Assembly (NCBI GenBank): GCA_026417625.1
Contig: JAOACW010000004.1
Coordinates: forward strand, 1 to 64,000
Direction of reading: 5' to 3'
DNA from: Syntrophales bacterium
Lineage (GTDB): Bacteria > Desulfobacterota > Syntrophia > Syntrophales > UBA8958
DNA: 64,000 bases
The notes under the pieces were generated by a model. It saw nothing but the letters and a program-made list of their open reading frames with translations. It did not search any database and was not told where the DNA came from. The translations under genes and the position numbers were made by a program. Positions 38,125-60,505 of the stretch are shown in pieces; the first letter of the stretch is position 1; every line of letters begins with the position of its first letter.

Positions 38125-38146
38125 AATAAAACCCCCTCCTATTTTT

Positions 38147-38929: not shown

Positions 38930-38957
38930 GTCCGAATACCTCCCCCTCACCTCTAAT

Positions 38958-39815: not shown

Positions 39816-39882
39816 AACAGCACCCTCCTTACTTATAGTGATTATTGTTGCACACGTTTAATCATGCACAACTCCTTCTGCT

Positions 39883-41247: not shown

Positions 41248-41301
41248 CGCCCTCCTCCTCTTTGTTATATTAGAGATCTTCAACTTCTAATAACGATTTC
41301 G

Positions 41302-44358: not shown

Positions 44359-44378
44359 AGAAAGGGGGGTAAGGAAAC

Positions 44379-45281
44379 ATGGCTAAAACGATGGAAGAAT
44401 TGATGGCTTTGATCGATGTAATACCAAATGAACCTGCTAAAGATGGGGAATTCATACTACCTGAGTTGATGGCAATTGCTGTAGCTCATGAAGTGCGGAA
44501 CGATGACATAGTGTTTGCGGGAACCGGGCTACCCATGGTGGGTATAATGACAGCCCAATTTATAAATGCTCCCAAGGCTATGTTGATCTATGAGTCAGGA
44601 ATATGTGACGGTAAAACCATGCATGTTCCGATGTCTGTTTGCGATCAGAGAGCAGCAAACTTGTGCTCCACTCTGGGTGGTCTGGTGGATACATTCGGCT
44701 ACTACCTCCAGCAGGGTTACGTTACTCTTGGGTTCCTTGGGGGAGCAGCTATTGATAAGTACGGTGGGGTGAACGTTACATCTATAGGCGATTATTACTC
44801 TCCATCACACAGATTTACGGGTTCAGGCGGTAACGGCGACATAGGCACTATGGCAAAACGAACAGCATTCATTATCCTACAAGAGAAGAGGCGTTTCGTA
44901 GAAAGGAACGACTACACAACAACGCCTGGATGGTGGTGCTGGGACTGGAAAGACGGAAAATGGAAACCAAAGAAGGAAGTTTGGAAAGGTACTCCTTTCG
45001 CAGATTGCGGGCCCGTTGCTGTTGTGACCAATATGGGCGTCTATCGTTTCGATGAAGATGGTATCATCTATCTCGAAACATGTCATCCTGGTGTAACAGT
45101 TGAACAGATCAAGGACAACTGCGGATTCGATCTAAACGTGTCACGTGTGAAAGGCGAAACACCGAGACCCACATATAGGGAGCTCTTCGTTCTCCGTGAA
45201 TTCGTGGATCCCGAGTTGATTTTCCTGCCTGCAAAGACGCCATACCCACCTGATATTCAGGCGATTATAGATAAAGCTTAA
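44379..45281 (+). CDS. gctB: CoA-transferase beta subunit, glutaconate CoA-transferase-like
   Basis: Carries the catalytic glutamate that forms the enzyme-CoA thioester, in the block MLIYESGICDG near residue 71. Other family blocks: IVFAGTGLPMVGIMTAQ, GYVTLGFLGGAAIDKYGGVN, GSGGNGDIGTMAKR. 300 residues; a Trp-rich insertion (GWWCWDWKDGKWKPK) lies near residue 185. It ends shortly before a strong terminator, so gctAB form a two-gene operon. Confidence 0.86.
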   Translation: MAKTMEELMALIDVIPNEPAKDGEFILPELMAIAVAHEVRNDDIVFAGTGLPMVGIMTAQFINAPKAMLIYESGICDGKTMHVPMSVCDQRAANLCSTLGGLVDTFGYYLQQGYVTLGFLGGAAIDKYGGVNVTSIGDYYSPSHRFTGSGGNGDIGTMAKRTAFIILQEKRRFVERNDYTTTPGWWCWDWKDGKWKPKKEVWKGTPFADCGPVAVVTNMGVYRFDEDGIIYLETCHPGVTVEQIKDNCGFDLNVSRVKGETPRPTYRELFVLREFVDPELIFLPAKTPYPPDIQAIIDKA

Positions 45282-45411: not shown

Positions 45412-46569
45412 ATGAATTTCGACTTAACAGAAGATCAACGCATGATTCAGGAAACAGCTCGTAACTTTGCGAAAACGGAGCTGGAGCCAGTTGCTGCAAA
45501 GATGGACGAAGAAGGTGACCGGGATACATTTTTAAAAAACCTCAGAAAGCTAGCAGAACTGGGAATGATGGGCATCAACGTAAAGGCTGAATACGGTGGA
45601 TCTGAAGCAGGAGTCATTGCTTTCAGCCTTGCAATTACGGAAATTGCCCGGGCCTGTGCATCCACAGCAGTTACCATGTCCGTGACGAACATGGTTTGTG
45701 AAGTCATCCAGGCTGTAGGAACGGAGGAGCAGAAACGTAAATACATTCCAAAAATGTGTTCCGGTGAGTATTACGCTGGAGGCTTCGGACTTACAGAACC
45801 TACAGCAGGCTCCGACGCAGCGGGAGTCCGTTGTACAGCCGTACTCGACGGAAATGAATGGGTATTAAACGGGAATAAAATCTTCATTACCAGTGGCGAA
45901 TACGCAGGTGTATTCGTGGTCTGGGCTGTAACGGACAAATCTGCTCCAAAAGGCAAAGGCATTTCCACATTCCTCGTTGAAAACGGCACGAAAGGATTCA
46001 CAATAGGTAGGGCGGAACACAAAATGGGACAGCATGCCTCTGCCACAAACGAACTGATCTTCGAGGATTGCCGAATTCCTAAAGATGCCTTATTGGGGGA
46101 GTTAAACGGTGGATTACGAATCGCACTAGGTGAACTTTCCGGGGGTAGAATAGGCATAGGTTCCCTTGCGCTCGGTGTGGGTCAGGCCGCTATTGAATAC
46201 GCCACACGTTACGCCGTGGAAAGAAGGCAGTTCGATCAGCCAATCAGCAATTTCCAAGCCATCCAGTGGATGATAGCTGAATCCCATACAGAGCTCGAGG
46301 CGGCAAGATTGCTCCTCCTTTACGCTGCTTTCCTTAAAGAAAAGGGGAGACCATTTGCCAGACAGGCTTCTATGGCAAAATACTACGCTACTGAGGCAGC
46401 AGAAAGGGCATGCTACAACGCCATCCAGATCTGCGGCGGATATGGGTACACAAAGGAATTTCCTGTGGAAAGGTATTACAGAGATGTGAGGGTTACGTCC
46501 ATCTACGAAGGTACCAACCAGATTCAAAGACTCATTATTGCCCGTGATATTCTGAGTAGTATAAAATAA
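45412..46569 (+). CDS. Acyl-CoA dehydrogenase, possibly glutaryl-CoA dehydrogenase
   Basis: 385 residues with full dehydrogenase motifs: GGFGLTEPTAGSDAAGV, LNGNKIFITSGEYAG, GELSGGRIGIGSLALGVG, GGYGYTKEFPVERYYRDVRV and SIYEGTNQIQRL with the catalytic Glu. It follows the glutaconate-CoA-transferase-like genes, which favours glutaryl-CoA as substrate, either with decarboxylation to crotonyl-CoA or stopping at glutaconyl-CoA as in Desulfococcus. No decarboxylase gene is in the window. A general short-chain acyl-CoA dehydrogenase is the alternative. Confidence 0.85.
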   Translation: MNFDLTEDQRMIQETARNFAKTELEPVAAKMDEEGDRDTFLKNLRKLAELGMMGINVKAEYGGSEAGVIAFSLAITEIARACASTAVTMSVTNMVCEVIQAVGTEEQKRKYIPKMCSGEYYAGGFGLTEPTAGSDAAGVRCTAVLDGNEWVLNGNKIFITSGEYAGVFVVWAVTDKSAPKGKGISTFLVENGTKGFTIGRAEHKMGQHASATNELIFEDCRIPKDALLGELNGGLRIALGELSGGRIGIGSLALGVGQAAIEYATRYAVERRQFDQPISNFQAIQWMIAESHTELEAARLLLLYAAFLKEKGRPFARQASMAKYYATEAAERACYNAIQICGGYGYTKEFPVERYYRDVRVTSIYEGTNQIQRLIIARDILSSIK

Positions 46570-46636: not shown

Positions 46637-47371
46637 ATGTTCACAAAAAACGTGATAGCTGAAATTTCAGAGGGACTAGGAATTATCAAACTTAACAGAC
46701 CGGCGAAAAAGAATGCCATAAACATTGAAATGCGCAGAGAAATAACAGAGGTCCTCAGAAAATGGAAAGAAGACTCCAATGTGGGAGCTGTTATCATAAC
46801 TGGAAATGGTGACGTTTTCTCTGCAGGGTTCGATCTCGGAGAGTTCAAAGAAACGCAATTAATCACAGAAATCTTCAAAACCTCCTCTACGTATCATAGA
46901 GAAGTGTGGTACTTTCCCAAACCCACAATGGCGGCAGTAAACGGTCCAGCCCTAGCAGGGGGATTTGACCTTGCCAAACTTTGCGACCTCCGCATATGCT
47001 CTGATAGAGCAACATTCGGTCATCCCGAAATTAGGTTTACACCCACCCTCTACACTCCTCTCAAATGGTTGATCGGTGCAGGTCTAGCTCGAGATCTTTG
47101 CCTCAGTGGAAGAATAATTGATGCCCAAGAAGCTTTCCGCATTGGGCTGGTAAGTGAAATAACACTACCGGGACGTCTACTTGGACGGGCCAAAGAAATA
47201 ATGAAAAAAATCATAGATCAAACACCACAACACGTACTGAACATTCAAAAGCGTTTTTTCCAGACACACGATGTCTTAGGGTTTGAAGAATCCTTCGCCA
47301 TAGAACACGATGCCGCATTTCAAGAATTCCTACTCAGAACCATAGCCGACAGGACAGCGACAAAAAATTAA
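46637..47371 (+). CDS. Enoyl-CoA hydratase/isomerase family protein
   Basis: 244-residue crotonase-fold protein: IIKLNRPAKKNAINIEMRRE, GNGDVFSAGFDLGEF (first oxyanion loop), AAVNGPALAGGFDLAKLCDL (second loop) and FGHPEIRFTPTLYTPLKWLI. In the second loop Asp replaces the first catalytic Glu of classical hydratases, so isomerase or another crotonase reaction is possible. Its 3' end overlaps the convergent radical SAM gene by four bases. Confidence 0.86.
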   Translation: MFTKNVIAEISEGLGIIKLNRPAKKNAINIEMRREITEVLRKWKEDSNVGAVIITGNGDVFSAGFDLGEFKETQLITEIFKTSSTYHREVWYFPKPTMAAVNGPALAGGFDLAKLCDLRICSDRATFGHPEIRFTPTLYTPLKWLIGAGLARDLCLSGRIIDAQEAFRIGLVSEITLPGRLLGRAKEIMKKIIDQTPQHVLNIQKRFFQTHDVLGFEESFAIEHDAAFQEFLLRTIADRTATKN

Positions 47372-48843
47372 AAAATCTCCGCCAATGCCGTTTCAATCAT
47401 ATTCACAGCCTCCTCCATGGCAGCGTTCCCCCGGTAAAACTTATTATCTCGCCAGTCCCTATAGTCTGGCGGGATCTTACCCTCGAGAAGATAATCCAAC
47501 ATGGAAAACTCGTAGAATGTTTTGCGGAGGGTGAAATAAGGATCTGCACCATGAGTCACCCGCACCATTGCCCTCGCTAAATCGAAAATTTTATACATCC
47601 GATCGATGTCCAATTCTCGATAGGAGGAAAAGTAATAGACCCATTCCTTTTCATGCCATTTTCCATCTCTGATAAGGGTTTCCTGAATGGGAGTACCAGG
47701 GAAGGGAATAAGAGACTCAGTATACGCAATTTCAGCACCCATTTTGAAAATAGCACAACCCAGACGAATCGTCTCTCTTATTGTATCAACAGTATCCCAG
47801 GGTCCAAAAAGAATAAAACTCACAACGGGCGTTAGATTCTGTTCCACACAGTAACTTACACCTTTTATGATATTCTCCACTTGAAGATCCTTCCCATAAA
47901 GGGAAAGTATCTCTTCTGAACCAGACTCTGCACCGATGTAAAGGCCTTTGAAACCTGCTTCGCTCATCCAGGATGCCATTAAAGGTTGCCTGCAGACATC
48001 GTCAATCCTACCCTGGGCATAAAACTCTACGTCTTGATTAAGAAAATTTCTAGTAATGGCCCGGCATATTTCCCTAACCCTTTCAGGGAAAGATGTAAAA
48101 TTGTCATCTGTAAAAAGGATACGTCGCGCACCCATACCTCTTAGCATTCCTATTTCTTCCAAAACTTTCTCCAGCGGTTCAAAGCGCACTTTAGATCCAT
48201 AAAGTCTTCTGATGGAGCAGAAAGTACACCGGTTAGGACAACCTCTGCTGGAGGAAATCGAACGAACCTTATAATATCTGCTATCAGAGAGGTGAAAAGC
48301 AGGGAAAGGATAACTACCGAGATCTCTTACAAGGGGCCGGTTGGGATTGTGTATTACCTCTTTACCCCTTCTGTAACTTAAACCAGGCACATCTTCGGGT
48401 GGATGACCACAGTAGATATCCTGTACAAGTTCCTGAAACGTCTCCTCTCCTTCCCCCCGACAAACCACATCCACAACTTCATAATCTCTAAGGATCTCAT
48501 CGTAGAGGACCGTGGCATGGATTCCGCCCAAAACAGTCAAAACGTCACTATTTCTATTTTTAGCTCTCTCGCATATCTTTAAGGCCTCTCCGACCGTGTT
48601 GGACATGCATGTGACCCCGAGTATCAACGGCCTCTTCGTCTCGAGATAACAATCCAAAATTTCATACCGCTCCTCTTTTTCCCCAACATCCATATCGAGG
48701 ATGTGCACATCAAATCCGTCCTCCAAAACTGGTGTGGCAAGTGACTCCAACGCAAGGGGAGATACTTCCGACAACCCATTGAACCGGGGATTTACAAGAA
48801 GGATAAAAGGAACCTTACCTTTCCAGGAAAAAAAATCGCTCAT
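47368..48843 (-). CDS. B12-binding radical SAM protein
   Basis: 491 residues. The N-terminal half (about 10-150) is a cobalamin-binding Rossmann-like domain (FILLVNPRFNGLSEVSPLAL, VLTVLGGIHATVLYDEIL), the middle a radical SAM barrel with SRGCPNRCTFCSIRRLYG for the 4Fe-4S cluster, and the C-terminal ~90 residues are unassigned. Class B radical SAM enzymes of this layout methylate unactivated carbons or rearrange rings. The substrate is unknown; the gene is preceded by the Cys-rich gene at 48862-49176 with an 18-base gap. Confidence 0.88.
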   Translation of the reverse strand: MSDFFSWKGKVPFILLVNPRFNGLSEVSPLALESLATPVLEDGFDVHILDMDVGEKEERYEILDCYLETKRPLILGVTCMSNTVGEALKICERAKNRNSDVLTVLGGIHATVLYDEILRDYEVVDVVCRGEGEETFQELVQDIYCGHPPEDVPGLSYRRGKEVIHNPNRPLVRDLGSYPFPAFHLSDSRYYKVRSISSSRGCPNRCTFCSIRRLYGSKVRFEPLEKVLEEIGMLRGMGARRILFTDDNFTSFPERVREICRAITRNFLNQDVEFYAQGRIDDVCRQPLMASWMSEAGFKGLYIGAESGSEEILSLYGKDLQVENIIKGVSYCVEQNLTPVVSFILFGPWDTVDTIRETIRLGCAIFKMGAEIAYTESLIPFPGTPIQETLIRDGKWHEKEWVYYFSSYRELDIDRMYKIFDLARAMVRVTHGADPYFTLRKTFYEFSMLDYLLEGKIPPDYRDWRDNKFYRGNAAMEEAVNMIETALAEIF

Positions 48844-48861: not shown

Positions 48862-49176
48862 TTATAGGAAATCCCCAATTCCCGAAAACTTCCTGAGCTT
48901 TCGCAATACTGTCTCCACTATGCACACCTCTCTTACTTTCTCGTGATCCACTGTATCAGCCGCCACAACTACATACAGATTTGAAGAAGGTGGATGGTAC
49001 TTCAGAGCGCAGCATGTGTAACAGCCATTCATGTAAACCACATAATCAGCATGATCCACATTGTACATAACTGAGACGCCTTCTCTCTCGAGGCAACTCC
49101 TCAAAGCTTCAGCCACTTTTCCTCGGTCTATTTGAGAATTGCAACCACCGCAAAACCGAATGCACACCCTAAACAT
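48862..49176 (-). CDS. Small Cys-rich protein (CGGC type)
   Basis: 104 residues from the ATG at 49176. Two Cys groups: RVCIRFCGGCNSQIDRGKVA at the N-terminus and NGCYTCCALK in the middle, plus CIVET near the end. The spacing suggests a metal or Fe-S site on a small alpha/beta (thioredoxin/ferredoxin-like) fold. No named family was recognised. It is probably co-transcribed with the downstream B12-radical SAM gene, so it may be its electron donor or scaffold. Confidence 0.7.
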   Translation of the reverse strand: MFRVCIRFCGGCNSQIDRGKVAEALRSCLEREGVSVMYNVDHADYVVYMNGCYTCCALKYHPPSSNLYVVVAADTVDHEKVREVCIVETVLRKLRKFSGIGDFL

Positions 49177-49178
49177 CC

Positions 49179-49265
49179 CTATTTCCAAATAATATCCCAG
49201 AGTTCCCCGTACCAGACACGGCGTGGTATATCCTCTCTAAATTCCCGGACCAACCCATCATCCGT
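49179..49265 (-). other. 28-codon open stretch resembling a coding remnant
   Basis: Between the 4-hydroxybutyryl-CoA dehydratase stop and the Cys-rich gene, one frame reads DDGLVREFREDIPRRVWYGE and ends IIWK followed by TAG two bases before the next ATG. The composition is protein-like. In-frame stops lie directly upstream, so it is either the last piece of a decayed gene or a tiny leader peptide starting at TTG. Nothing else was seen in the 201-base gap. Confidence 0.25.
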
Positions 49266-49377: not shown

Positions 49378-50832
49378 TTAATCCTCTGGGATACCTGCAA
49401 TCTTCTTGGCCAGCTTTATCTTATGCTCAAGGTTACCCTGGCGGGCTATCATGATACGCTGAGCCTGAGGGGAACCTGCACCGTGCATGGATTCTGTTCT
49501 GTAGCCCACCGCCGCTGTTCCCAGTGTAAGATTTTCTATTAAGCGGAGGATGCGGAGGCGGTACTCCGTTGGTACTCCTGCTACGCCTTTCAAGTACTTT
49601 TCAATATACTTACCAGCAATGGGATGTCGGAAATCCTTTTCAGATGGCATGGTAACCATAAGACCCCCCGCAATGTCTTCAGCTAACCGCGCTATCTCAT
49701 AGGGAAACCGTGTCACATTCTGCTTACACACGTTTGCCAGGAGAAGGTTGATGAGATAAGTGCCGGATGCAGTTTGATAACCCTCTGCTGAACAGGCGAT
49801 TCCACATGCATAAAGGGTTTCATTTAGGTGAATCATTTCTATCAGCTTTTCTCTTATATGAGACGCCCTACTTACACCGTTGTATTCAGCTGCAAGAGCA
49901 GCGGCACCGATAAGGACATCTCCCACACCTACCTTGCAACCGCCATAACTCTGACGATGGTATCCTGCAAAACGTTCTACAAGTAAACCACTGAACTCAT
50001 ATTCCCCACACATGAAAACGTTTTCCCAGGGCACGAATAAGTCATCAAAAATCATCATCGCCTCGTGACCGCCAAAATAACGATTACCTATATCAATCTC
50101 TCCGCCTTCCAATTTCCTCGTATCGCAGGATTGCCGACCGTAAATGTATATGATACCTTCCGCATCGGCCGGGGCAGCGAAACAAAGGGCATAATCGGCA
50201 TCTTCTTTCGTCAAAGTCATGGTGGGCATCACTAAAATCCAGTGGGAATTTACTGCTCCAGTCTGGTGGGCTTTACATCCCCGAACAACAATGCCATCGG
50301 ACCGCTTCTCCACCACTCTGCAGAAGAGATCCGGATCCTTCTGTTTGCTCGGTCCCAGACTCCTATCACCCTTAACATCAGTCATAGCACCATCCACAGT
50401 CCAGTCCTCTTCCTGCATACGAAGGAGAAACCTGGTGAAACGACTGTGATAGTCTGTTCCTAGTTTTCTATCCATCTCGTACGTGACACTATCCACCGCA
50501 TTTATCGCATCCATTCCCACACATCTTTGAAAACAGGCCGCTGTTTTCTGACCCATAAGACGAAGCATCTTCACTTTCTTAATGAGATCATCTGTACTAC
50601 GGTGAAGATGACAGAAGCGGTTGATCTTGTTGCCTGTTAGGTGGGACGTAGCCGTCATTAAATCCTCATACTGCGGATCCTGTGCAAGGGCGTAAGTCAT
50701 TTTAACTGAATTCATGGATGGCCTTATTATAGGGTGGTCCACCACGTTCTTCACCTCTTCCCCCATCAGGAAAACACGGAATTTCATCCTGCGGAGGCTC
50801 TCCTCGTATTCTTCCGCGGTTTTCAAAGGCAT
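49378..50832 (-). CDS. abfD: 4-hydroxybutyryl-CoA dehydratase / vinylacetyl-CoA isomerase
   Basis: Member of the 4-hydroxyphenylacetate-hydroxylase superfamily; 484 residues from the ATG at 50832 (GGGAGGG upstream). The characterised Clostridium enzyme binds its oxygen-sensitive 4Fe-4S cluster by Cys99, Cys103, His292 and Cys299; here ACFQRC (C100, C104) and HRQSYGGC (H292, C299) give the same set and spacing. FAD and a ketyl radical dehydrate 4-hydroxybutyryl-CoA to crotonyl-CoA. These ligands are absent in the hydroxylases, so the call is firm at the superfamily branch. Confidence 0.92.
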   Translation of the reverse strand: MPLKTAEEYEESLRRMKFRVFLMGEEVKNVVDHPIIRPSMNSVKMTYALAQDPQYEDLMTATSHLTGNKINRFCHLHRSTDDLIKKVKMLRLMGQKTAACFQRCVGMDAINAVDSVTYEMDRKLGTDYHSRFTRFLLRMQEEDWTVDGAMTDVKGDRSLGPSKQKDPDLFCRVVEKRSDGIVVRGCKAHQTGAVNSHWILVMPTMTLTKEDADYALCFAAPADAEGIIYIYGRQSCDTRKLEGGEIDIGNRYFGGHEAMMIFDDLFVPWENVFMCGEYEFSGLLVERFAGYHRQSYGGCKVGVGDVLIGAAALAAEYNGVSRASHIREKLIEMIHLNETLYACGIACSAEGYQTASGTYLINLLLANVCKQNVTRFPYEIARLAEDIAGGLMVTMPSEKDFRHPIAGKYIEKYLKGVAGVPTEYRLRILRLIENLTLGTAAVGYRTESMHGAGSPQAQRIMIARQGNLEHKIKLAKKIAGIPED

Positions 50833-50855
50833 ACTCAATCCCTCCCTTTATCTTT

Positions 50856-52079
50856 TTATCCCTCCCGCCACACCCGGTAGGGATAATAAGTTTCCACTAC
50901 GTCCAATCTGCCCAACTGACCTCCACCCAGCCAGATTTGGATAATTTTACTATCCCTCAGATACTTCTCCACATGGTATTCTCTGGCGTAACCATAAGAT
51001 CCCATGAGTTCCATTGCACGGTTACAGACCATTTCTGTTACATCACAGGCATAAACCTTCGCTGCACTAGCCCTACCAAGTAAAAAATCGTCGCCGGGAC
51101 CACCGTATTTCTTTCGATTGTTAAACATCGTTGCCACAGAAAGATAAAAGGCGCGCGCAGATTCTATACCAATGGCCATATCAGCAATCATAGCCGCCTG
51201 AAGAGAATGATTCCGCACCGGTTTTCCTCCATAGGCCCTGGTTTTAGAGAATTCTATCACAATTTCGAGAACTGCCTGAGCATTACCAATTGCCATAGGA
51301 GCACTGGTAAGCCTCCCCCAACCTACATTGGCACGGAGTAGTTGCCAATCCACACCTGGCCCACCAGCACGGTATTCTTTTGGAACACGCACATTATCAA
51401 AATATATCGCGGTATTGACATCCGTAACCTTCATACCCATCTTTTGCTCAGGTTTTCCAAAGGTCATACCTGTTGTATCCTTTGGGACGTATATTAGGGC
51501 CACACCATCTTCCTTCAGAGCAGGATCGGTAGTACACACAACGCAGTAAAGATCAGCAATACTAGCACCACTTGGCCACATCTTTTTTCCGTTTATCACC
51601 CACTCATCTCCTTCTAATCTTGCCCGTGTTTTTATGGTCATAGCGTGTTCCCCTGGATCCTCTATGTTGCAACCGCCCTCCGGCTCAGTTATAGCCATGC
51701 AGCCACAACGGGGAACATCTTCACAGAACATGGGAATAAATCTGTCCATCAGGAACTTGTTTCGCGCTCCCATTGCAGGAGCCAGACACCAGGGTATGAT
51801 CAAAGTGTGCAAAGCGAGACCACTATCCCCTCTTGCAATTTCTTCTGTTATGGCACATACCACTGGTGCAGAACGAATTCCCAAACCTCCGTACTCCGGT
51901 GAAAATCCCCGCCTCTGGATTCCCAACTTAACAAGGCCGGTGTAAACCTTTTCAAAAACGCTATAATCCTCGTCAAGTTCCAGACGCCGAGGCATAACCT
52001 CGCGATCCACATAATTCCGGATGGTTTGCAGGAAAGCAATTTCCTCTTCGCTCGTAATAAACTCTCCGTAGCGCTTCAT
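50856..52079 (-). CDS. Acyl-CoA dehydrogenase-like protein lacking the usual catalytic Glu
   Basis: 407 residues from the ATG at 52079 (GGGGG six bases before). The fold is intact: MAITEPEGGCNIEDPGE, VINGKKMWPSGASIADLY, GWGRLTSAPMAIGNAQ and GSYGYAREYHVEKYLRDSKI. However, where relatives have YEGTN with the catalytic Glu, this protein has IWLGGGQLGR, and no Glu is at the alternative helix-G position either (GWGR instead of x-E-R). FAD binding seems kept, so it may act on an unusual substrate with another base, or be non-catalytic. It sits between abfD and an Fe-alcohol dehydrogenase. Confidence 0.87.
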   Translation of the reverse strand: MKRYGEFITSEEEIAFLQTIRNYVDREVMPRRLELDEDYSVFEKVYTGLVKLGIQRRGFSPEYGGLGIRSAPVVCAITEEIARGDSGLALHTLIIPWCLAPAMGARNKFLMDRFIPMFCEDVPRCGCMAITEPEGGCNIEDPGEHAMTIKTRARLEGDEWVINGKKMWPSGASIADLYCVVCTTDPALKEDGVALIYVPKDTTGMTFGKPEQKMGMKVTDVNTAIYFDNVRVPKEYRAGGPGVDWQLLRANVGWGRLTSAPMAIGNAQAVLEIVIEFSKTRAYGGKPVRNHSLQAAMIADMAIGIESARAFYLSVATMFNNRKKYGGPGDDFLLGRASAAKVYACDVTEMVCNRAMELMGSYGYAREYHVEKYLRDSKIIQIWLGGGQLGRLDVVETYYPYRVWREG

Positions 52080-52096
52080 GACATACCCCCTTTTTT

Positions 52097-53269
52097 TCAA
52101 CCCTTACAAAGTTCAAGAATCTCCAAAATGACCTCTTTCGTATAACCCTTCATTCTCCACACTGAAGCTGTGAACGAGGCATGTTCCGCTATTTTCTCCA
52201 TATCCCCCTCAGGTATACGGACTTCCCTCAAGGTAACAGGACTACCTATTCGAGCAAACCAATCTTTTAGAAGACGAATGCCCTCTTCTGCGGCTTTTAA
52301 ATCGTCCGCAATATCTACACCCATAACTTCCCTTGCCAAACGGGCAAATTTCGAAGGATTGTTCCTTAAGGCATACTTCATCCAAGCTGGTAGTGTAATG
52401 CTCAAACCTGCACCATGGGGAACATCGTAGAGGGCACTCAATGAATGCTCCACCATATGAGCAGGAAAAGATATGATCCCCAATCCCGCTGTAGTAATTC
52501 CGCTGAAAGCCAGAACAGCTGACCACATTATATTTGCCCTTCCATTGTAGTGCTCCGGATCCTTCAAAACTACTTCTGTACTCTCCATCACAGTTTTCAT
52601 CAGTCCCTCTACCAATCTATCCTGCAGTACACTCTCTGGCTCCTGGTTGTTGAAGTAACCTTCGAGAAGATGGGCAATGATGTCCACTGAACTGTACGCT
52701 GTGTAATTTGAGGGCAAAGTAAAAAGTACCGTGGGGTCAAGAATAGAAACCCTAGGTTGAATAAACGGTGAAGTGAGGGTTAGTTTCTGCGCTCCTTCAT
52801 CCTTGGTCATTACCGCATGAGGATTAGACTCTGACGAACTCGCAGAAACAGTAACTACCGCCACAACAGGTAGTGCATCTTTTATTCTTTTCTTAAGCGT
52901 GAAGTAGTCCCATATGTCTTCCTGAGGGTCCATCCTCACACCAGCTGCAATAGTCTTTGCCGTATCGATGACACTACCACCTCCCACAGCAAGAACTACA
53001 TCTGCCCTTTCTTCACGGCAGAGCTTTATGCCATTCACTGCATGGGAAAGAAGCGGATTGGATCGTACACCTGAAAACTCAATAATTTCCACACCTGCAT
53101 CCTTCAGTGATTGTACCACTTTTTCGTAAGTTCCCGTTCTTTTGATACTACCTTGACCGAAAACAAAAAAAACTCTTTGCCCCAGCCTTTTAACTTCCTC
53201 ACCAACACGCTCTATCATTCCTTTGCCAAAAAGAATCCTCGTTGGGTTATGAAAGACGAAATTCTGCAT
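52097..53269 (-). CDS. Iron-containing alcohol dehydrogenase
   Basis: 390 residues, group III alcohol dehydrogenase. NAD(P) site VLAVGGGSVIDTAKTIAAG; metal-binding Asp/His set in YSSVDIIAHLLEGYF and PAHMVEHSLSALYDVPHGAG. The sequence is nearest the butanol dehydrogenase/YqhD type. With abfD and CoA-transferases in the same run, 4-hydroxybutyrate (succinate semialdehyde) dehydrogenase activity is an attractive inference, not established by sequence. Confidence 0.9.
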   Translation of the reverse strand: MQNFVFHNPTRILFGKGMIERVGEEVKRLGQRVFFVFGQGSIKRTGTYEKVVQSLKDAGVEIIEFSGVRSNPLLSHAVNGIKLCREERADVVLAVGGGSVIDTAKTIAAGVRMDPQEDIWDYFTLKKRIKDALPVVAVVTVSASSSESNPHAVMTKDEGAQKLTLTSPFIQPRVSILDPTVLFTLPSNYTAYSSVDIIAHLLEGYFNNQEPESVLQDRLVEGLMKTVMESTEVVLKDPEHYNGRANIMWSAVLAFSGITTAGLGIISFPAHMVEHSLSALYDVPHGAGLSITLPAWMKYALRNNPSKFARLAREVMGVDIADDLKAAEEGIRLLKDWFARIGSPVTLREVRIPEGDMEKIAEHASFTASVWRMKGYTKEVILEILELCKG

Positions 53270-53292
53270 ATAAAACCTCCCTAAAAAAATTT

Positions 53293-53322
53293 GGGGGGGG
53301 TGTTTACAGACCCACCCCCCCC
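53293..53322 (-). terminator. Terminator after the acyl-CoA ligase gene
   Basis: On the minus strand a G-run (GGGGGGGGTGGGTCTG) pairs with CACCCCCCCC and is followed by AAATTTTTTT. It lies between the ligase stop and the Fe-alcohol dehydrogenase start, so it may split the run into two transcription units or attenuate it. Confidence 0.7.
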
Positions 53323-53344
53323 ATAATTACACTCCCCTAGTTAC

Positions 53345-54982
53345 TCACTTGTCTTTGAACATCTGCCTCATTTCACGCTTCAGTATCTTCCCGGTCGGGG
53401 TTTTAGGAAGGGCATCCACGAAGAAAACCTTTTTCGGACATTTGAAGGGTGCAAGGTGACTTCGACAATGTCCCATCAGTTCTTCTTCTGTCATCTTTTC
53501 TCCCGGCTTGAGAACAACCACAGCGGTAACCACCTCTACCCACTTAGGATCGGGCAAACCGATAACGGCCACTTCCTGAACCCTCTTGTCGAGGTAAATA
53601 GCTTCTTCAACCTCGCGGGTGGAGACATTTTCACCACCTGTCTTTATCATGTCTTTCTTGCGATCCACAACTGTTATGTAACGGTCCTCATCCATAACAC
53701 CCACATCTCCGGAATGGAACCATCCACCCTTCATAGCCTCTTCCGTTTTCTCAGGATCCTTGAAGTACATGATCATTACATGAGGACCACGACCGCATAT
53801 TTCACCGGGTACGCCAGGTTTATCTATGGGATTTCCGTCATCATCCTCAAGACGGGTCTCCATGTTTAATCCACCCATACCCGCCGAACCGATCTTCCTA
53901 AGAGCATCTTTCGCTTTTAGAATGGTATGATACGGTGCAAGTTCAGTCTGACCGTAATAGTTGTAAATTCTCACGCCTGGGAGCCTTTCCATCATCTCTT
54001 TTAAAATCTCCACAGGCATTATAGATGCGCCGTAATAACACTTCTTCAAGGATGAGAGATCGCGTTTATCGAAATCTGGGTGACGAAGCATACCTATCCA
54101 CACTGTCGGCGGGGCGAAGAAGAGTGTTGCTTTATAGGCTTCAATATTCTGTAATATCTGCCCAATATCAGGCGTCATGAGGATGTTCGTTCCACCAAGC
54201 CAGAAAATAGGGTTCATGAACACATCCCTTTGAGCACAATGATAAATAGGCAGGGCATTCAGGTTGATATCCTCCTCCTCGTACTGACCATCCACTATCG
54301 TCCCCATGTACTGGGCAAGCAAAGCCTGATTGCTGATGATGACACCCTTGGGAAGGGCCTCGGTGCCACTTGTGTATGTCATCTGACAGGGATCCTCAAT
54401 GTGAAGTATACAATCTGGTTCCGTATCGGGATACGCTTTGTACCACGTATTGAAATCAATAAAACGATCGCTAATTGGCGGTTTCCCCGCCATATCGTCA
54501 GACCAGATATACGTTTTAACGGTGGGCATATCATCCATCACGTCTTTCACCAGGTCATAGAGGGCATCCTCGATAATAAACACTTTGCTCTCAGAGTGGT
54601 TTATGCAATACGAAATATCTTTGCCCCTAAGAAGGTAGTTTATCGCCAGATAGATAGCCCCAATTTTGCAGCAACCGAACCAAGTAAGGACGTGATGAAT
54701 CGTGTTGTGGGCAAGAATTGCTACCCTATCGTACTTCTGCACTCCTAGCGACAAAAGGGCATTTGCTACCTTGTTACATTCCTTCTCTAATTGCTCGTAG
54801 GTCAGTGTTCTGTCCTTGAAAATCAAAGCAGGTTTATTGGGATAACGGTAAGCACTACGTCTAATAATATCAGCAATTACCCAGCGGTTAACCCTGTTGT
54901 AGCGGTTCATCAAAAATTCCAGATTTTCCTTGTTAATTACATTGTACCTCTGTTTCTCTTCCTCTTTAAGTGGCGCCCACAT
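53345..54982 (-). CDS. AMP-dependent acyl-CoA synthetase (CaiC/FadD type)
   Basis: 545 residues. Activates a carboxylic acid to its CoA thioester with ATP. Core motifs: MTYTSGTEALPKGVIISN (P-loop; Glu replaces the common Ser/Thr-x pattern), YNYYGQTELAPY, GGWFHSGDVGVMDEDRYITV, DRKKDMIKTGGENVSTREVE and the catalytic Lys in TPTGKILKRE. Together with two CaiB-type genes and a dehydrogenase it recalls the carnitine cai cluster, but substrate is not readable. Confidence 0.92.
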   Translation of the reverse strand: MWAPLKEEEKQRYNVINKENLEFLMNRYNRVNRWVIADIIRRSAYRYPNKPALIFKDRTLTYEQLEKECNKVANALLSLGVQKYDRVAILAHNTIHHVLTWFGCCKIGAIYLAINYLLRGKDISYCINHSESKVFIIEDALYDLVKDVMDDMPTVKTYIWSDDMAGKPPISDRFIDFNTWYKAYPDTEPDCILHIEDPCQMTYTSGTEALPKGVIISNQALLAQYMGTIVDGQYEEEDINLNALPIYHCAQRDVFMNPIFWLGGTNILMTPDIGQILQNIEAYKATLFFAPPTVWIGMLRHPDFDKRDLSSLKKCYYGASIMPVEILKEMMERLPGVRIYNYYGQTELAPYHTILKAKDALRKIGSAGMGGLNMETRLEDDDGNPIDKPGVPGEICGRGPHVMIMYFKDPEKTEEAMKGGWFHSGDVGVMDEDRYITVVDRKKDMIKTGGENVSTREVEEAIYLDKRVQEVAVIGLPDPKWVEVVTAVVVLKPGEKMTEEELMGHCRSHLAPFKCPKKVFFVDALPKTPTGKILKREMRQMFKDK

Positions 54983-55005
54983 GTGGTACCTCTCCTTCAG
55001 TTTTT

Positions 55006-56355
55006 TTATATAATTCCTTCCGTCTCAAGTTCTTTAAGCTTTGCAGGTCCATACCCGAGGTATTTCAGATAGATGTAACCATTGTCGTAACCCACAGGAC
55101 GACACACCCACTTAGTTCTAGGTGGTGTACCTGTAGATTTCCACTGGGCCTGAGCGCATATAACAGGACCGTAAACCGGATCGTTTACAGGAGTAAAAAT
55201 GCCACGATCGTTCCATACAGGGTCTTTCATCGTTTCCATCGGTGGAACAATGGGTGCTACAACCGCTGTGATCGGGGCTAGACGACCCTTCTTGGCATAG
55301 TCCACTGACATTTGGACTAACTCTTCGCTTGTATACTTGGAGGTTTCAGGATTGATCATGGCTTGGTACTTGAGTTGCCAGTCCTTCTTCATGAAAGGCG
55401 CCAGAGTTGTCCATTCAGCAGCTCCCCACTCTTCATACTTTCCGATAATATCCACGAAAGCCTTCCACATTTCGAGACGTAAACCACCTAGAAAAACACC
55501 ACCGTTCTTCGTGGGGAAAAACCCATACAACCAGAGTGCTGTATCGAGGTTGCCAAATCTCTCAGCTATTACCCCCTGACCCGCATACCAGTGCAGGGCA
55601 TAGTCATGAAGACGCTCATAGGCTTCGTAACTGGCAACGTCAATAGCCTGACCCTCCCCAGTATTCATGCGGTGCAGAAGAGCTGCTAAAATACCAATCG
55701 CCCCAAAAGTTCCCGAAACGGCCCAGGCAATCCAAACACCCGCCTTAGTTGGAACAGCATATGGCATCTCGTCATAAGTTTTGCCCTCGGGAAGTATTTC
55801 CCCCGTTGTGTATTGCACACCCGAGCGGGCCTGTGCTACGTTGTCGTAATCGTACTGCTGTCTCAGACTCTCAGGTCCAAATCTACCAAAAGCACTGATG
55901 GAGGTGTAGATCAAGCGAGGATTTATCTTTGATAAATCTTCATACCCCAGTCCCCAACTGTCCATAACACCGGTGGGATAGGTTTCAATCAAAACATCTG
56001 CATATCCCACAAGTTTCTTGAGTATCTCCCTTCCCTCTTCCTTCTCTAAGTTAAGGGTTATGTGATACTTGTTCCGCCCTTCCTGAAGATAAGCATAACC
56101 TGTCCCCATGTGCATTAGACCGTTCGGCGAGTACGTCCTGACTATATCGCCCCCCGGTGGCTCAATACGGATGGTTTCCGCCCCCAGTTCTGCTAAAAGG
56201 GAAGAGCAAAAACAACCAGCCATGCTCCTGGAACTGAGATCAAGAACAACAAGATCATCGAGTGCTTCGGGCTTCTCAAAATTCTTCGCAGGATCGTCAA
56301 GGGACCTTATATAATCAGCCCATGGTGCCCATTTTGGCCTTTCGTGCTGTGTCAT
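55006..56355 (-). CDS. CaiB/BaiF family CoA-transferase, subunit lacking the catalytic Asp
   Basis: 449 residues of the class III CoA-transferase fold: LVVLDLSSRSMAGCFCSSLL, LGAETIRIEPPGGDIVR, ISAFGRFGP, and GILAALLHRMNTGEGQAIDV. Aligned to formyl-CoA transferase, the catalytic Asp (Asp169, in LGDSNTG) falls on Trp211 here (GVWIAWAVSGTFG). It is six bases downstream of a second CaiB gene that keeps the Asp, which suggests a heteromeric enzyme with a non-catalytic subunit. Confidence 0.9.
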   Translation of the reverse strand: MTQHERPKWAPWADYIRSLDDPAKNFEKPEALDDLVVLDLSSRSMAGCFCSSLLAELGAETIRIEPPGGDIVRTYSPNGLMHMGTGYAYLQEGRNKYHITLNLEKEEGREILKKLVGYADVLIETYPTGVMDSWGLGYEDLSKINPRLIYTSISAFGRFGPESLRQQYDYDNVAQARSGVQYTTGEILPEGKTYDEMPYAVPTKAGVWIAWAVSGTFGAIGILAALLHRMNTGEGQAIDVASYEAYERLHDYALHWYAGQGVIAERFGNLDTALWLYGFFPTKNGGVFLGGLRLEMWKAFVDIIGKYEEWGAAEWTTLAPFMKKDWQLKYQAMINPETSKYTSEELVQMSVDYAKKGRLAPITAVVAPIVPPMETMKDPVWNDRGIFTPVNDPVYGPVICAQAQWKSTGTPPRTKWVCRPVGYDNGYIYLKYLGYGPAKLKELETEGII

Positions 56356-56361
56356 GGCTCG

Positions 56362-57687
56362 TCACCTCCTCAGTATTGCACCCGATTCACCATCCCAGTC
56401 TGAGGGAGGACGTCTACCCTGCATATCTTTCCACTTACCAAGTACTCCTTCCTCATACAACTTCTCTATTTGCGACTGGGAGTAGCCCAGGATCTTTGTC
56501 ATAATAAAGTCATTGTCAAAACCTACTGGTCTTACCGTCCACCTATGTTTGGGTGGGGTTTTGGACATCATCACGGGAAATTCATGGTCAGGGTATCTTC
56601 CGTACATGGGATCATCGATAAATTTCATAAAATCCCTGGCGCGCCTGTGGGGGTCTTCAAACATATCCCGGGCATTGTGAAGTCGACTCGCCGCAAAACC
56701 GTAATACTTGCCCAACTCCTCAATCTCACGTGCCGTTTTCGTCCTTGCCCAATCGGCAATTATTTTCAATATCGCGAGAGCATTCTCATCTTTCAGACGA
56801 GTAGAATGATCCTTGAAGCGTGGATCCTCCGCCAATTCCGGTCTCCCCATCGCCTTGCACAAACCAGCAAACTCATCAGGCGCTGGAGCTGCAATAGCAA
56901 CAAATAGATCATCTTTACAGAGAAACGTATCAGCAGGACAGATACACTGATCCCTGTTTCCAGCAGGCTCCACACCTTTACCTGTAAACTGTTGGTACGG
57001 CCAAACCCAACCCATTGCCCGCATTATATTCTCACTTTGGGACAGTTCAATGTACTGACCCTTTCCTGTCTTTTTCCTGTAATAAAGAGCGGAAAGAACC
57101 GCCACTTCTCCCATCATGGCCCCAAATACATCACAGATCCAAATGCTCTGTTTCAAAGGAGGCCTACCGGGAAAAGAGGATATCCATGCATACCCTGACA
57201 TTGCTTGAGCAGCTCCATCGTTAGATGGTCGATCCTGCTCCGCATATAGACCCCACTGTCCAAATCCATTCTTCTCTATGTAGATTATACCCGGATTTAT
57301 CTTTTTAATATCCTCGTAACCGACATTCCATCTGTTAGGAACCGCAGGCCTCATGTTGAACTCAATGATATCGGCCTTCTTCGCCAGTTCTCTAAATATC
57401 TCCTGCCCTTTCTCCTTATGAAGGTCAAGGGCCATGTAGTACTTATCCGTGTTTATATGCATGAACATCGGTCCCTGTTCTTTGTAAAACCATCCAAAGG
57501 GATTTAGCGATCGCGTAACATCACCGAGAGGTGGTAATTCGATTTTTATAACCTCGGCACCGAGACTGGCAAGAAAGGAAGGACCTGCAGGACCGAAAAG
57601 TAACGTACATACCTCAAGAACCCGTATGCCTTTGAGTGGACCAGGACGGGAATACTTATTGGCAACATAATTCTGAAATGTGATCAT
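56362..57687 (-). CDS. CaiB/BaiF family CoA-transferase, subunit with catalytic Asp
   Basis: 441 residues from the ATG at 57687 (AAGGGGGGG upstream). Motifs: GIRVLEVCTLLFGPAGPSFL, LGAEVIKIELPPLGDVTRSL, NGFGQWGLY, catalytic Asp186 in SIWICDVFGAMMG, and YYRKKTGKGQYIELSQ. Class III transferases move CoA between carboxylates through an aspartyl-CoA thioester. Pairing with the Asp-less neighbour resembles two-subunit enzymes such as benzylsuccinate CoA-transferase. Confidence 0.9.
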   Translation of the reverse strand: MITFQNYVANKYSRPGPLKGIRVLEVCTLLFGPAGPSFLASLGAEVIKIELPPLGDVTRSLNPFGWFYKEQGPMFMHINTDKYYMALDLHKEKGQEIFRELAKKADIIEFNMRPAVPNRWNVGYEDIKKINPGIIYIEKNGFGQWGLYAEQDRPSNDGAAQAMSGYAWISSFPGRPPLKQSIWICDVFGAMMGEVAVLSALYYRKKTGKGQYIELSQSENIMRAMGWVWPYQQFTGKGVEPAGNRDQCICPADTFLCKDDLFVAIAAPAPDEFAGLCKAMGRPELAEDPRFKDHSTRLKDENALAILKIIADWARTKTAREIEELGKYYGFAASRLHNARDMFEDPHRRARDFMKFIDDPMYGRYPDHEFPVMMSKTPPKHRWTVRPVGFDNDFIMTKILGYSQSQIEKLYEEGVLGKWKDMQGRRPPSDWDGESGAILRR

Positions 57688-57713
57688 TATAATCCCCCCC
57701 TTCATCTATTTAC

Positions 57714-57743
57714 CATGGGGGGACATATATACATCCCCCCATG
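57714..57743 (-). other. Inverted repeat between permease and CaiB genes
   Basis: CATGGGGGGA and its complement TCCCCCCATG around a 10-base AT loop. There is no T-run on either side. It may be a transcript-stabilising or partial terminator structure inside the operon. Confidence 0.5.
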
Positions 57744-57777
57744 CGCTTCAATGACAAAATTCTGAACCCCTTTAAGA

Positions 57778-58503
57778 TTAGGCCTTTATCACTGGTGGCG
57801 GTGTGGGGTAAATCTTCTTGCCATAAATGGTGTTCACCACCACAGCACCTGACATGTAGACACCATACCAACCGGAGATGATAAGCAACCAACCGATAAT
57901 AGGTTTCAGGGTCTTGGGATCACCATACCAACCGGTATCGACACCAACGATCAACCAGAGTACAATGTCAATTAGAATAACCAGCATGAACAACGGACTA
58001 CGTAAATATGCCGGTGTTACCACTGTGAGGAATGCTGCTCCAGCCATCCAGTTCCATCCTTCTACGTGAACGGCCTTTTGCATCATTGCACCCACCGCTT
58101 TACCGACATCCGCCTTTACCTTGGCCATCACCTCAGGTGAAAGCAGCTTCGGATCCGTTACCCCCGCGGCTGCCATTGCCGCATCCAAAGCCTCTTTCTG
58201 TGCCTTTGGAACAAACATAAAATTGATCATGTACCACTTGGCAAACACACTAAGCGCCGCAGCAAACATGAAGAACGCAGAAAAGAATAGAAAAACGTTA
58301 CCGCCGGTAATATTGAAATCCTTCAATTCAATGACAGCAGTGGTGTACTGCACTATTCCACCACCGACTAGCCATGCGGCAAGAAGAGGTAGACCACTTA
58401 CATCCACCTTACCAAGAAAAACTGCACCAAAACCAAAACATGCCACTGCCAGCGCACCCAAACCTGCTGGTCCTGGTGTTGCAAAGTTGTGTTCATGAGC
58501 CAT
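57778..58503 (-). CDS. GPR1/FUN34/YaaH (AceTr/SatP) family acetate-type transporter
   Basis: 241 residues with six hydrophobic helices. The family motif region is NFATPGPAGLGALAVACFGF near residue 6. A ~50-residue hydrophilic insertion (KAQKEALDAAMAAAGVTDPK and on) separates helices 3 and 4, which the ~190-residue SatP proteins lack. Family members carry acetate, succinate or other short acids across the inner membrane; in this cluster a short hydroxy acid or acetate is likely. AAGGAGG precedes the ATG. Confidence 0.86.
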   Translation of the reverse strand: MAHEHNFATPGPAGLGALAVACFGFGAVFLGKVDVSGLPLLAAWLVGGGIVQYTTAVIELKDFNITGGNVFLFFSAFFMFAAALSVFAKWYMINFMFVPKAQKEALDAAMAAAGVTDPKLLSPEVMAKVKADVGKAVGAMMQKAVHVEGWNWMAGAAFLTVVTPAYLRSPLFMLVILIDIVLWLIVGVDTGWYGDPKTLKPIIGWLLIISGWYGVYMSGAVVVNTIYGKKIYPTPPPVIKA

Positions 58504-58742
58504 AGACTATTACCTCCTTTTTTTCATAAACTACCGATAAGTAAATGTTCCGTTTTTCATGAGCTCACCTCTACGCTTTTCCAATCCTCTGGATTTTTGC
58601 CCCTTCATCCCCCCTTTCTTTTAATGCAAAGATACTCTTTGCAAAATAATCATTGGTATAAACTGAAGTAGCGTGGCGGGTTTTTCTACTCCCTCCTCAG
58701 GTGTTTTAGTTAACAAATAGTAAAAGCCTTGTCAAGTGAAAA

Positions 58743-58913
58743 CTACCAGAGTCTCCCGTACTTCGCCACAATGACGATTAACCCGAGCAGCCATACTACT
58801 GTGACTATGAGCATCAAATCGCCGCGGTTTATCGTTCTCTTCTTGGATAAACCGGCAAGACGCTTTTCCAGCTCCATTTCTCTCTTCTTTTCCCTTTTCT
58901 TCTTTTTTCCCAT
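58743..58913 (-). CDS. 56-residue membrane peptide in the CoA-transferase/permease operon
   Basis: Short frame with a highly basic N-terminus (MGKKKKREKKREMELEKRL), then NRGDLMLIVTVVWLLGLIVI as one transmembrane helix and a short tail AKYGRLW. GGTGATG stands eight bases before the ATG. It lies between the CoA-transferase gene and the AceTr permease gene on the same strand. The basic-then-hydrophobic layout predicts a cytoplasmic N-terminus. It may be a small accessory subunit of the permease. Confidence 0.6.
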   Translation of the reverse strand: MGKKKKREKKREMELEKRLAGLSKKRTINRGDLMLIVTVVWLLGLIVIVAKYGRLW

Positions 58914-58935
58914 AATACATCACCGAATCTAATAG

Positions 58936-58967
58936 AAAAGACCCAGGGATATATTTCCCCGGGTCTT
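58936..58967 (-). terminator. Terminator after the acetyl-CoA-hydrolase-type CoA-transferase gene
   Basis: On the minus strand AAGACCCGGGG / CCCTGGGTCTTTTCT, stem with one mismatch and a short AT loop followed by T-rich sequence, 24 bases after the stop. The 239-base gap from 58504 to 58742 downstream of the small peptide contains no clear gene, only a TTGACA (58735-58730) that may belong to a promoter for the permease. Confidence 0.72.
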
Positions 58968-58990
58968 CTGCCTTTCCGCAAAGGATCCGA

Positions 58991-60505
58991 TCACTTTCCA
59001 CTCTGATAAGGATCCCAATCGAATCCCCAAAGTTCGCTGTGGTGGGGCAGTTTGTAGTTGCGGCGTTCGTCGTAAGATGGATACCTTCTGTTCCCACCTT
59101 CCTCTGGCAGGAAGTTGATCTTCGATTTTGGTGGAAGCAGACCATCCTCGTAAGCAGCTTTGCGCAGCCACTCTCTATCATCGGGATGGGCAATGGAAAT
59201 CAAAGCCTCGGCACGCTCGTAACCGTTAAGACCCCTGAGGTTCACAATACCGTACTCTGTACAAACGTAATTCACAAGCTGAGCAGGCACGTCCACAGAA
59301 CAACCCTCAGGCAGGAAGGGAACAATGCGGGATGTACCGTGTTTGCTTCGGGATGTCATAGACACCACACTTCTTCCCCCTCTGCTCTGACAACAGAAGC
59401 TTATGAAGTTAAAGAATCCACCTGATGAAGAAATGGGCCTCTTCTCGTAGAACCCACAGCAGGCCTGACCGAGAAGATCTACAGCGACAGCATTGTTTAT
59501 AGCCAACATGTTATCGATGCGCGTCAAGGTTTGAGCATTGTTCGTATAGCTTATGTCATAGACAGCTAGATTCATGTTTCTATGGATTGTGTTGTAGTAC
59601 CACTCAGTATCCACCGGGAAGGCGAACGTCCAGACACTTCTACCCCTATCAATGGACTTGTATCGGTTTGTCACCGAACCGGACTCGATAAGATTGAGGA
59701 GACCAAAGTTCATCATTTCCGTATGGATCCCCAAATCCTTAAGTCCCGCTTCGCTGAGGGCCGTTGCCACAGCGGATGGCAGAGCACCTATACCCAGCTG
59801 GATAACATCTCTGTCACGGGCAATCTTCATTATATTATTGGCAATGGCCACTTCCTCATCTCTCGGTTTTATCGCCTTCTCGTTTATCTGAGGCCAACGA
59901 TACTTCTCACAATCCACTTCCACCCAGTAGTCAATATCATCTATATGGATGGTATTAAAGCGACCACCCTCAGCCCAAGGATAATCGCTACGAACCTCGA
60001 GAACTATCTTCTTGGCACATTGCCTGAAAATATTGCAGTTATTTGTACCATATGAAAAGTTCGCAAATCCGTGTTCATCAAAGGGAGTTGCGGCATTCCA
60101 CCACCAATCCAAACCCCGCTTCTCTTTTACTGCATGGATAAATCGGTAGTGCTGAAACCACATTCCCATAGCCCAACCCCAGTTGGCCCAACTTGTAACC
60201 TTGTTCGTGTCCCGCGCTTTCCTGTTCCACGGGAAGAAGAAGTACTCATGAATCACATGATACTCCTGATGGGGATCCACCTGCTGGAACTCTGGATGGG
60301 GATAAAAATTTGCGTACTGCCATATCTCAATGTCCTTTAATTGACCGGGCCCTGGACCGAGACGCTTGGCCAACTCCTTCATTAAAACTGTAGAATCACC
60401 TCCCACAGATCCCGGCTGAATCCAGTCGCCACTTTTTACCATATCCAGAATCTGCTCGGGTGTACGTTTTTTATCCCTGATTTTTTGCTGTATTGGTGTT
60501 GTCAT
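58991..60505 (-). CDS. Acetyl-CoA hydrolase/transferase family protein (4-hydroxybutyrate CoA-transferase-like)
   Basis: 504 residues of the class I CoA-transferase fold fused in one chain. The catalytic Glu lies in LGIHTEMMNFG near residue 266; other blocks are DVIQLGIGALPSAVATALSE and EYGIVNLRGLNGYERAEALI. The family's SGGQxDF stretch is altered to SSGGFFNFISF. Next to abfD, transfer of CoA from acetyl-CoA to 4-hydroxybutyrate is the natural guess; other short acids are possible. First gene of the minus-strand run ending at 49378. Confidence 0.88.
   Translation of the reverse strand: MTTPIQQKIRDKKRTPEQILDMVKSGDWIQPGSVGGDSTVLMKELAKRLGPGPGQLKDIEIWQYANFYPHPEFQQVDPHQEYHVIHEYFFFPWNRKARDTNKVTSWANWGWAMGMWFQHYRFIHAVKEKRGLDWWWNAATPFDEHGFANFSYGTNNCNIFRQCAKKIVLEVRSDYPWAEGGRFNTIHIDDIDYWVEVDCEKYRWPQINEKAIKPRDEEVAIANNIMKIARDRDVIQLGIGALPSAVATALSEAGLKDLGIHTEMMNFGLLNLIESGSVTNRYKSIDRGRSVWTFAFPVDTEWYYNTIHRNMNLAVYDISYTNNAQTLTRIDNMLAINNAVAVDLLGQACCGFYEKRPISSSGGFFNFISFCCQSRGGRSVVSMTSRSKHGTSRIVPFLPEGCSVDVPAQLVNYVCTEYGIVNLRGLNGYERAEALISIAHPDDREWLRKAAYEDGLLPPKSKINFLPEEGGNRRYPSYDERRNYKLPHHSELWGFDWDPYQSGK

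Follow-up and report, generated by a model that had tools for sequence, protein, structure and literature searches.

Here we describe a gene cluster from a Syntrophales bacterium, located at positions 49378-60505 of a 64,000-nucleotide stretch of DNA (the window; contig JAOACW010000004.1 of assembly GCA_026417625.1), in which AbfD, a gene of the 4-hydroxybutyryl-CoA dehydratase type, stands among genes for short-acid import and coenzyme A (CoA) activation. The genome is represented by a 1.79 Mb assembly of 32 contigs and is 97.8% complete. All eight named genes of the cluster are open and complete on the minus strand, and in order of transcription they are CoAT1, a SatP-like permease, CaiB1, CaiB2, LIG, FeADH, ACAD and AbfD. 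Comparison with relatives revealed a composite cluster built from two gene sets: set B, which comprises the first five genes and several others of the same island, and set T, the FeADH-ACAD-AbfD trio. The gene names rest on family and profile searches and on matches in the Protein Data Bank (PDB), which, together with the reading frames, bore out the eight genes and families assigned to the region by an earlier analysis of the same DNA (the original prediction).

CoAT1 (58991..60505, 504 aa) is a class I CoA-transferase of the AbfT / butyryl-CoA:acetate group that has the Glu of the HTEM motif, and its orthologues are found at 70-83% identity in many Syntrophales genomes. The permease (57778..58503) is a 241-aa protein with several hydrophobic segments that barely passes the threshold for PF01184, at 26.7 bits against a cut-off of 25. 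CaiB1 (56362..57705) and CaiB2 (55006..56355) are class III CoA-transferase subunits (CoA_transf_3, PF02515), the former with the catalytic Asp (WICD) and the latter without it (WIAW). LIG (53345..54982) is an AMP-forming acyl-CoA ligase (PRK08316, 793 bits against a cut-off of 663), FeADH (52097..53269; PF00465) is an iron-containing alcohol dehydrogenase of the butanol dehydrogenase/YqhD type, and ACAD (50856..52079; PF00441, PF02770, PF02771) is an acyl-CoA dehydrogenase-fold protein. AbfD (49378..50832), assigned from its match to PDB entry 1u8v and its ligand motifs, belongs to the 4-hydroxybutyryl-CoA dehydratase / vinylacetyl-CoA isomerase family. Comparison with relatives places the start sites of AbfD and ACAD at 50832 and 52079, the listed TTG starts being a few codons too early. 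From the permease through AbfD, neighbouring genes are separated by gaps of 6-75 bp, and 487 bp lie between CoAT1 and the permease. Because of these short gaps and the ribosome-binding-like sequences that precede most genes of the cluster, the layout fits a single transcript running from the permease to AbfD. Scans for promoters and terminators found no excess over shuffled sequences, and an Rfam search returned no matches.

The composite nature of the cluster emerged when the neighbourhoods of ACAD, AbfD and CaiB2 were compared in relatives; the counts given below refer to the loci examined, the relatives include metagenome assemblies, and contig ends cut several of these neighbourhoods. Set B was seen complete in one sister genome only, G001, of the same family, where a single contig, C80, carries, in the order of the window, CoAT1, the permease, CaiB1, CaiB2, LIG, a radical-SAM gene, an enoyl-CoA hydratase-like gene (ECH), a second acyl-CoA dehydrogenase gene (ACAD45), GctB and GctA, with thiolase, hbd, crt and bcd further along the contig, as in the window. 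Identity to the window is 82-92% (85% for the permease, 90-92% for GctA and GctB), except for the radical-SAM protein (52%) and ECH (65%). In G001 the radical-SAM gene comes immediately after LIG, with no trio between them, and no ACAD of the kind that lacks the usual catalytic base was found in that genome. Conversely, FeADH-ACAD-AbfD trios unaccompanied by set B genes were found in five genomes of other families (G037, G025, G075, G065 and G061). Elsewhere the trio is partial: ACAD-AbfD at a contig end in G049, FeADH-ACAD without AbfD in G026 and FeADH-AbfD without ACAD in G021. Wherever the contig extends far enough, FeADH adjoins ACAD in the trio loci, and ACAD adjoins AbfD in 7 of the 9 Syntrophales loci examined.

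In the window, the trio sits between LIG and the radical-SAM gene, exactly where set B is uninterrupted in G001. The simplest reading of these gene orders is that FeADH, ACAD and AbfD, together with a small cysteine protein described below, were inserted at this point in the lineage of the window. The arrangement in G008, where the CaiB pair lies near the radical-SAM gene and the trio is absent, agrees with insertion as the direction of change. The comparison of gene order proposed with the original prediction thus revealed two separable gene sets, and the idea that the CoA-activation genes are grouped around the dehydratase did not survive it, as the same block is complete in G001 without AbfD and the trio occurs elsewhere without the block. 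The eight-gene block is nevertheless not a product of chance, because CaiB1 and CaiB2 are adjacent in 16/16 pairs and the FeADH-ACAD-AbfD combination recurs in other families.

AbfD has the appearance of a bona fide 4-hydroxybutyryl-CoA dehydratase, as had been predicted. It matches 1u8v over its full length (756 bits over 479 residues), and all four ligands of the [4Fe-4S] cluster, Cys99, Cys103, His292 and Cys299, are kept, with the CFQRC and HRQSYGGC motifs identical to those of 1u8v in the alignment. Homologues of AbfD also include a named vinylacetyl-CoA delta-isomerase (6vjr). The genome contains five HpaB/AbfD-family genes above the Pfam cut-off, at five different places, and three of the other four have a change at the position of the histidine ligand. 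In a tree of 24 AbfD proteins, the window copy clusters with those of G065:C122, G007 and G051 (support 100/99), all of which adjoin a CGGC protein and most of which also adjoin an AbfT gene; constraining all AbfDs of trios to one clade was rejected by the approximately unbiased test (AU p 0.003). In the ACAD tree the window protein clusters with the ACADs of the trios (support 98/94). The disagreement between these trees implies either that AbfD became linked to FeADH-ACAD on more than one occasion or that it was replaced, and repeated joining suggests a functional link between the dehydratase and its partners.

Next to AbfD lies the gene for the small cysteine protein mentioned above (48862..49188, minus strand), 108 aa in length, with no Pfam family. 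Homologues with the same CGGCN..IDR motif and a second cysteine motif are encoded next to AbfD or in its vicinity at many Syntrophales loci (L187, L188, L189, L192, L193, L194, L198, L200 and others), and the protein may serve in the assembly or redox chemistry of AbfD. A different cassette, consisting of a 470-aa membrane-type protein, AbfD and an AbfT-like CoA-transferase, was seen at L187:767-6057, L189:5976-11048 and L203:2182-7118, the CGGC gene lying between the latter two genes in two of the three; it is probably a simpler 4-hydroxybutyrate unit. Separately, the genome of the window encodes on contig C8 (L222:223-2982) a second pair, formed by an AbfD-like protein whose His position is taken by Gln and an isovaleryl-type ACAD with Glu in a PERL motif. 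The same pair was found at L223, L225-L229 and L232-L234, and in several relatives the next gene encodes a protein that starts like the beta-keto acid cleavage enzymes.

In the ACAD of set T the N-terminal, middle and C-terminal domains are intact (PF02771, PF02770 and PF00441, each above cut-off), and the test for the superfamily fold is therefore positive; that for the catalytic Glu of the alpha,beta-dehydrogenating acyl-CoA dehydrogenases is negative. Active-site places were assigned from sequence alignments. The place of the catalytic Glu is occupied by Leu384 (WLGG), with Leu in 11/11 members of the clade, and the place used by isovaleryl-CoA dehydrogenase is Gly in all of them, which upholds the earlier description of this protein as atypical. 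The nearest sister clades, at 62% and ~50% identity, keep the catalytic Glu (WEGG). A histidine, His91, is invariant in the 11 clade members and absent from the Glu-keeping sisters, and it is also carried by two distant Glu-less proteins from Chloroflexi; its alignment position would put it within the region of the acyl pocket. Because the flavoprotein fold is kept and the normal base is gone, the ACAD is unlikely to be a butyryl-CoA dehydrogenase of the usual sort; catalysis of a lyase, isomerase or gamma-position step is more likely, and His91 is a candidate acid/base for it. The closest ACADs among named relatives come from Syntrophaceae/Syntrophales genomes.

Parallels are offered by 7p98 and 3-sulfinopropionyl-CoA desulfinase, both ACAD-fold enzymes without the usual loop Glu; in 7p98 a role falls to Asp91. 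The window ACAD resembles 7p98 in fold and in the missing loop Glu, but has Trp97 aligned with Asp91, its His91 lying elsewhere in the pocket region. The ACAD of the second AbfD-like pair (IWTGT) was considered as another base-less case and dropped, since a Glu occupies the place used by isovaleryl-CoA dehydrogenase (PERL). Tandem ACAD genes, one of them with Met for the catalytic Glu (WMGGK), occur in bacteria and archaea at L028, L031 and L051-L057, some of them beside genes resembling those for benzoyl-CoA reductase-type or corrinoid proteins, and in-frame TAG and TGA codons were noted in or near distant ACAD relatives at L013 (G031) and L015 (G002).

The two class III CoA-transferase genes are a constant pair in the loci examined. 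In 16/16 pairs the catalytic Asp is present in CaiB1 (WICD or WVCD) and replaced by Trp in CaiB2, and the two proteins are 28% identical to each other. A full-length CaiB2 orthologue at >=76% identity was found in ~30 of 100 relatives searched, counting the genome of the window; in most relatives the pair has neither LIG nor AbfD alongside. LIG adjoins CaiB2 in G001 and G033, and is accompanied by thl/crt-like genes in G026. The constant adjacency and the loss of the Asp from one partner argue that CaiB1 and CaiB2 probably form one heteromeric enzyme with CaiB2 as a pseudo-subunit, for which BbuB and BbuC, two class III proteins active only together, provide a published precedent (PMC8364193). 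The Asp pattern could serve as an easy way to recognise heteromeric class III CoA-transferases from sequence. Among the three independent routes to a CoA thioester that had been predicted, the class III pair is most likely one heteromer of a catalytic and a pseudo-subunit, and a further transferase, of the GctAB type, is present in the island.

The island extends beyond AbfD and the CGGC gene. A gene for a B12-binding radical-SAM protein, identified by family search, follows at 47368..48843 on the minus strand. On the plus strand are ECH, an enoyl-CoA hydratase-like gene (46637..47371), ACAD45, an acyl-CoA dehydrogenase with its catalytic Glu (YEGT; 45412..46569), and a GctA/GctB-type two-subunit class I CoA-transferase, named from sequence (43300..45281), which also adjoins the CaiB pair in G051. 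The bcd, crt, hbd and thiolase operon lies at 36976..41283 on the minus strand. Being part of the same conserved island, it supports the predicted outlet for crotonyl-CoA within the window.

The likeness of the cluster to several known systems is partial in each case. Like the clostridial 4hbD-abfT-abfD module, which also yields crotonyl-CoA, it brings together an AbfD complete in its ligand motifs, an AbfT-group transferase and an iron-containing alcohol dehydrogenase; unlike that module, its dehydrogenase is of the butanol type, and it adds a base-less ACAD, a predicted class III heteromer and a ligase, in a genome without entry genes for GABA (gamma-aminobutyrate) or succinate. With the enteric cai operon it shares CaiB-family, ligase and ACAD genes, but the scores are far below the specific cut-offs (69 against 540 for the crotonobetainyl-CoA dehydrogenase model, 93-106 against 413 for carnitine CoA-transferase and 271 against 651 for carnitine-CoA ligase). 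The bbu/gbu cluster of Emergencia timonensis, which converts gamma-butyrobetaine to trimethylamine, likewise has a class III pair, an ACAD-family protein and a crotonyl-CoA outlet. It differs in having a betaine/carnitine/choline transporter and ferredoxin genes, which are not in the window cluster; the latter has a SatP-like permease and AbfD instead, and its class III pair and ACAD are unlinked in relatives. The published criterion for a BbuA-type lyase is >70% identity, and our separation of the two clusters was made from transporter and linkage, with no comparison to the BbuA sequence. The bbs operon also encodes two different class III subunits (the benzylsuccinate CoA-transferase BbsEF) and an ACAD (BbsG). 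Against 9fn0, CaiB1 scores 126 bits with chain B and 84 with the other chain, and CaiB2 scores 85 with chain A and 75 with the other. No BbsCD/BbsAB/BbsH set was recognised in the window, which differs further in its Glu-less ACAD and in the presence of AbfD. A class III pair is found in the benzene 'Magic' cluster too, which as described has neither AbfD nor ACAD (PMC13101534).

By these comparisons of gene content and family scores, the cluster is neither a cai operon nor a bbu cluster, nor the clostridial GABA/succinate pathway. The original prediction of a composite unlike both abf and cai was therefore upheld by gene order and family scores. The parts common to both are families (AbfD, AbfT-group transferase and iron-containing alcohol dehydrogenase on one side, CaiB, ligase and ACAD on the other); the alcohol dehydrogenase is of another type, and the cai-specific scores are low. 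Our literature search found no description of this gene arrangement; the parts of the AbfD module and of the syntrophic short-acid island are of known kinds, and their combination is unusual.

On balance, we consider it somewhat probable that the cluster is a composite operon in which set B serves short-acid import, activation and beta-oxidation and set T adds gamma-elimination, so that an acid of the 4-hydroxybutyrate type is converted to crotonyl-CoA. The two gene sets, their separate occurrence and the ligand and active-site residues are established from sequence, and the substrate, the direction of the pathway, co-transcription and the roles of ACAD and FeADH are as we infer them. The set B products (CoAT1, the permease, CaiB1/CaiB2, LIG, the radical-SAM protein, ECH, ACAD45, GctBA and thiolase-hbd-crt-bcd) would import short acids, activate them with CoA and beta-oxidise them. 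The 4-hydroxybutyrate-type acid would be taken up and receive its CoA from the CaiB1/CaiB2 heteromer, CoAT1 or LIG; AbfD would then strip the gamma-hydroxyl by a [4Fe-4S]/FAD radical mechanism, and the resulting crotonyl-CoA would pass to acetyl-CoA via hbd and thiolase. The ACAD would act beside FeADH, a presumed broad aldehyde/alcohol dehydrogenase.

Several observations weigh against this proposal. AbfD is the single gene that points to 4-hydroxybutyrate as the substrate, and the acid would have to be imported, because FeADH falls outside the 4-hydroxybutyrate dehydrogenase type, and neither succinate-semialdehyde dehydrogenase nor GABA transaminase was found in the 97.8% complete genome. 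The ACAD can evidently work without AbfD, as six ACAD loci (one in a Syntrophales genome, five of other or unclear assignment) have neither AbfD nor FeADH alongside, as far as the contigs extend. Finally, set B has no AbfD beside it in G001, and the two sets may therefore have an operon in common without contributing to one pathway. Indeed, set T may merely have been inserted into a short-acid activation operon, its enzymes acting on something else. This is consistent with the occurrence of each set complete without the other and of the CaiB pair without LIG or AbfD in most relatives, but seems unlikely to us given the common strand and short gaps from the permease to AbfD, and given that AbfD requires a CoA thioester in a genome with no second AbfT-group CoA-transferase at E 1e-60.

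Other explanations concern the chemistry. AbfD might act mainly as a vinylacetyl-CoA isomerase, shifting the double bond of a 3-enoyl-CoA that the ACAD makes from a gamma-substituted or alkoxylated acyl-CoA, to give crotonyl-CoA. The adjacency of ACAD to AbfD, which involves two different AbfD lineages, the retention of the ACAD fold without its base and the kinship of AbfD to 6vjr all speak for such a route; we nonetheless regard it as quite unlikely, since the position of His91 comes from alignment only and some ACAD loci have no AbfD. Degradation of gamma-butyrobetaine in the manner of bbu, with the CaiB pair forming butyrobetainyl-CoA, the ACAD freeing trimethylamine and the crotonyl-CoA being oxidised, would draw on analogies with that cluster: bbu has two class III CoA-transferases, both required and 30% identical, near the value for the window pair, and its ACAD-family lyase yields crotonyl-CoA (PMC8364193). 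It is very improbable here, as the CaiB pair and the ACAD are unlinked in every other genome examined, the permease is of the SatP type rather than a betaine transporter, AbfD would be superfluous and no close relative of the ACAD was found in 391 Clostridia genomes; MttB was not found in the genome either, which argues against a trimethylamine-based economy. The co-occurrence of an iron-containing alcohol dehydrogenase, an AbfT-group transferase and AbfD recalls clostridial fermentation of GABA or succinate via 4-hydroxybutyrate (4hbD, abfT, abfD), an explanation that is largely refuted. ProA is the sole aldehyde dehydrogenase-family gene of the genome, and ArgD and HemL are its sole class III aminotransferases, which argues against 4-hydroxybutyrate arising from succinate or GABA, and FeADH reaches 135 bits with the 4-hydroxybutyrate dehydrogenase model, for which the cut-off is 500, its closest relatives being butanol dehydrogenases.

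If the proposed composite operon is real, syntrophic bacteria would have extended a beta-oxidation island with a radical gamma-dehydratase and paired that enzyme more than once with a base-less ACAD-fold protein. A more speculative and rather unlikely extension is that the FeADH-linked ACAD is a new redox-neutral flavoenzyme, its base moved to His91, which eliminates a gamma-substituent or forms a 3-enoyl-CoA in tandem with AbfD; two flavoproteins of one structural superfamily would then share a single gamma-elimination pathway in syntrophic bacteria. The ACAD would provide a direct test case for a question posed for BbuA (PMC8364193), namely whether ACAD-fold flavoenzymes and AbfD carry out the same C4 elimination via different mechanisms.

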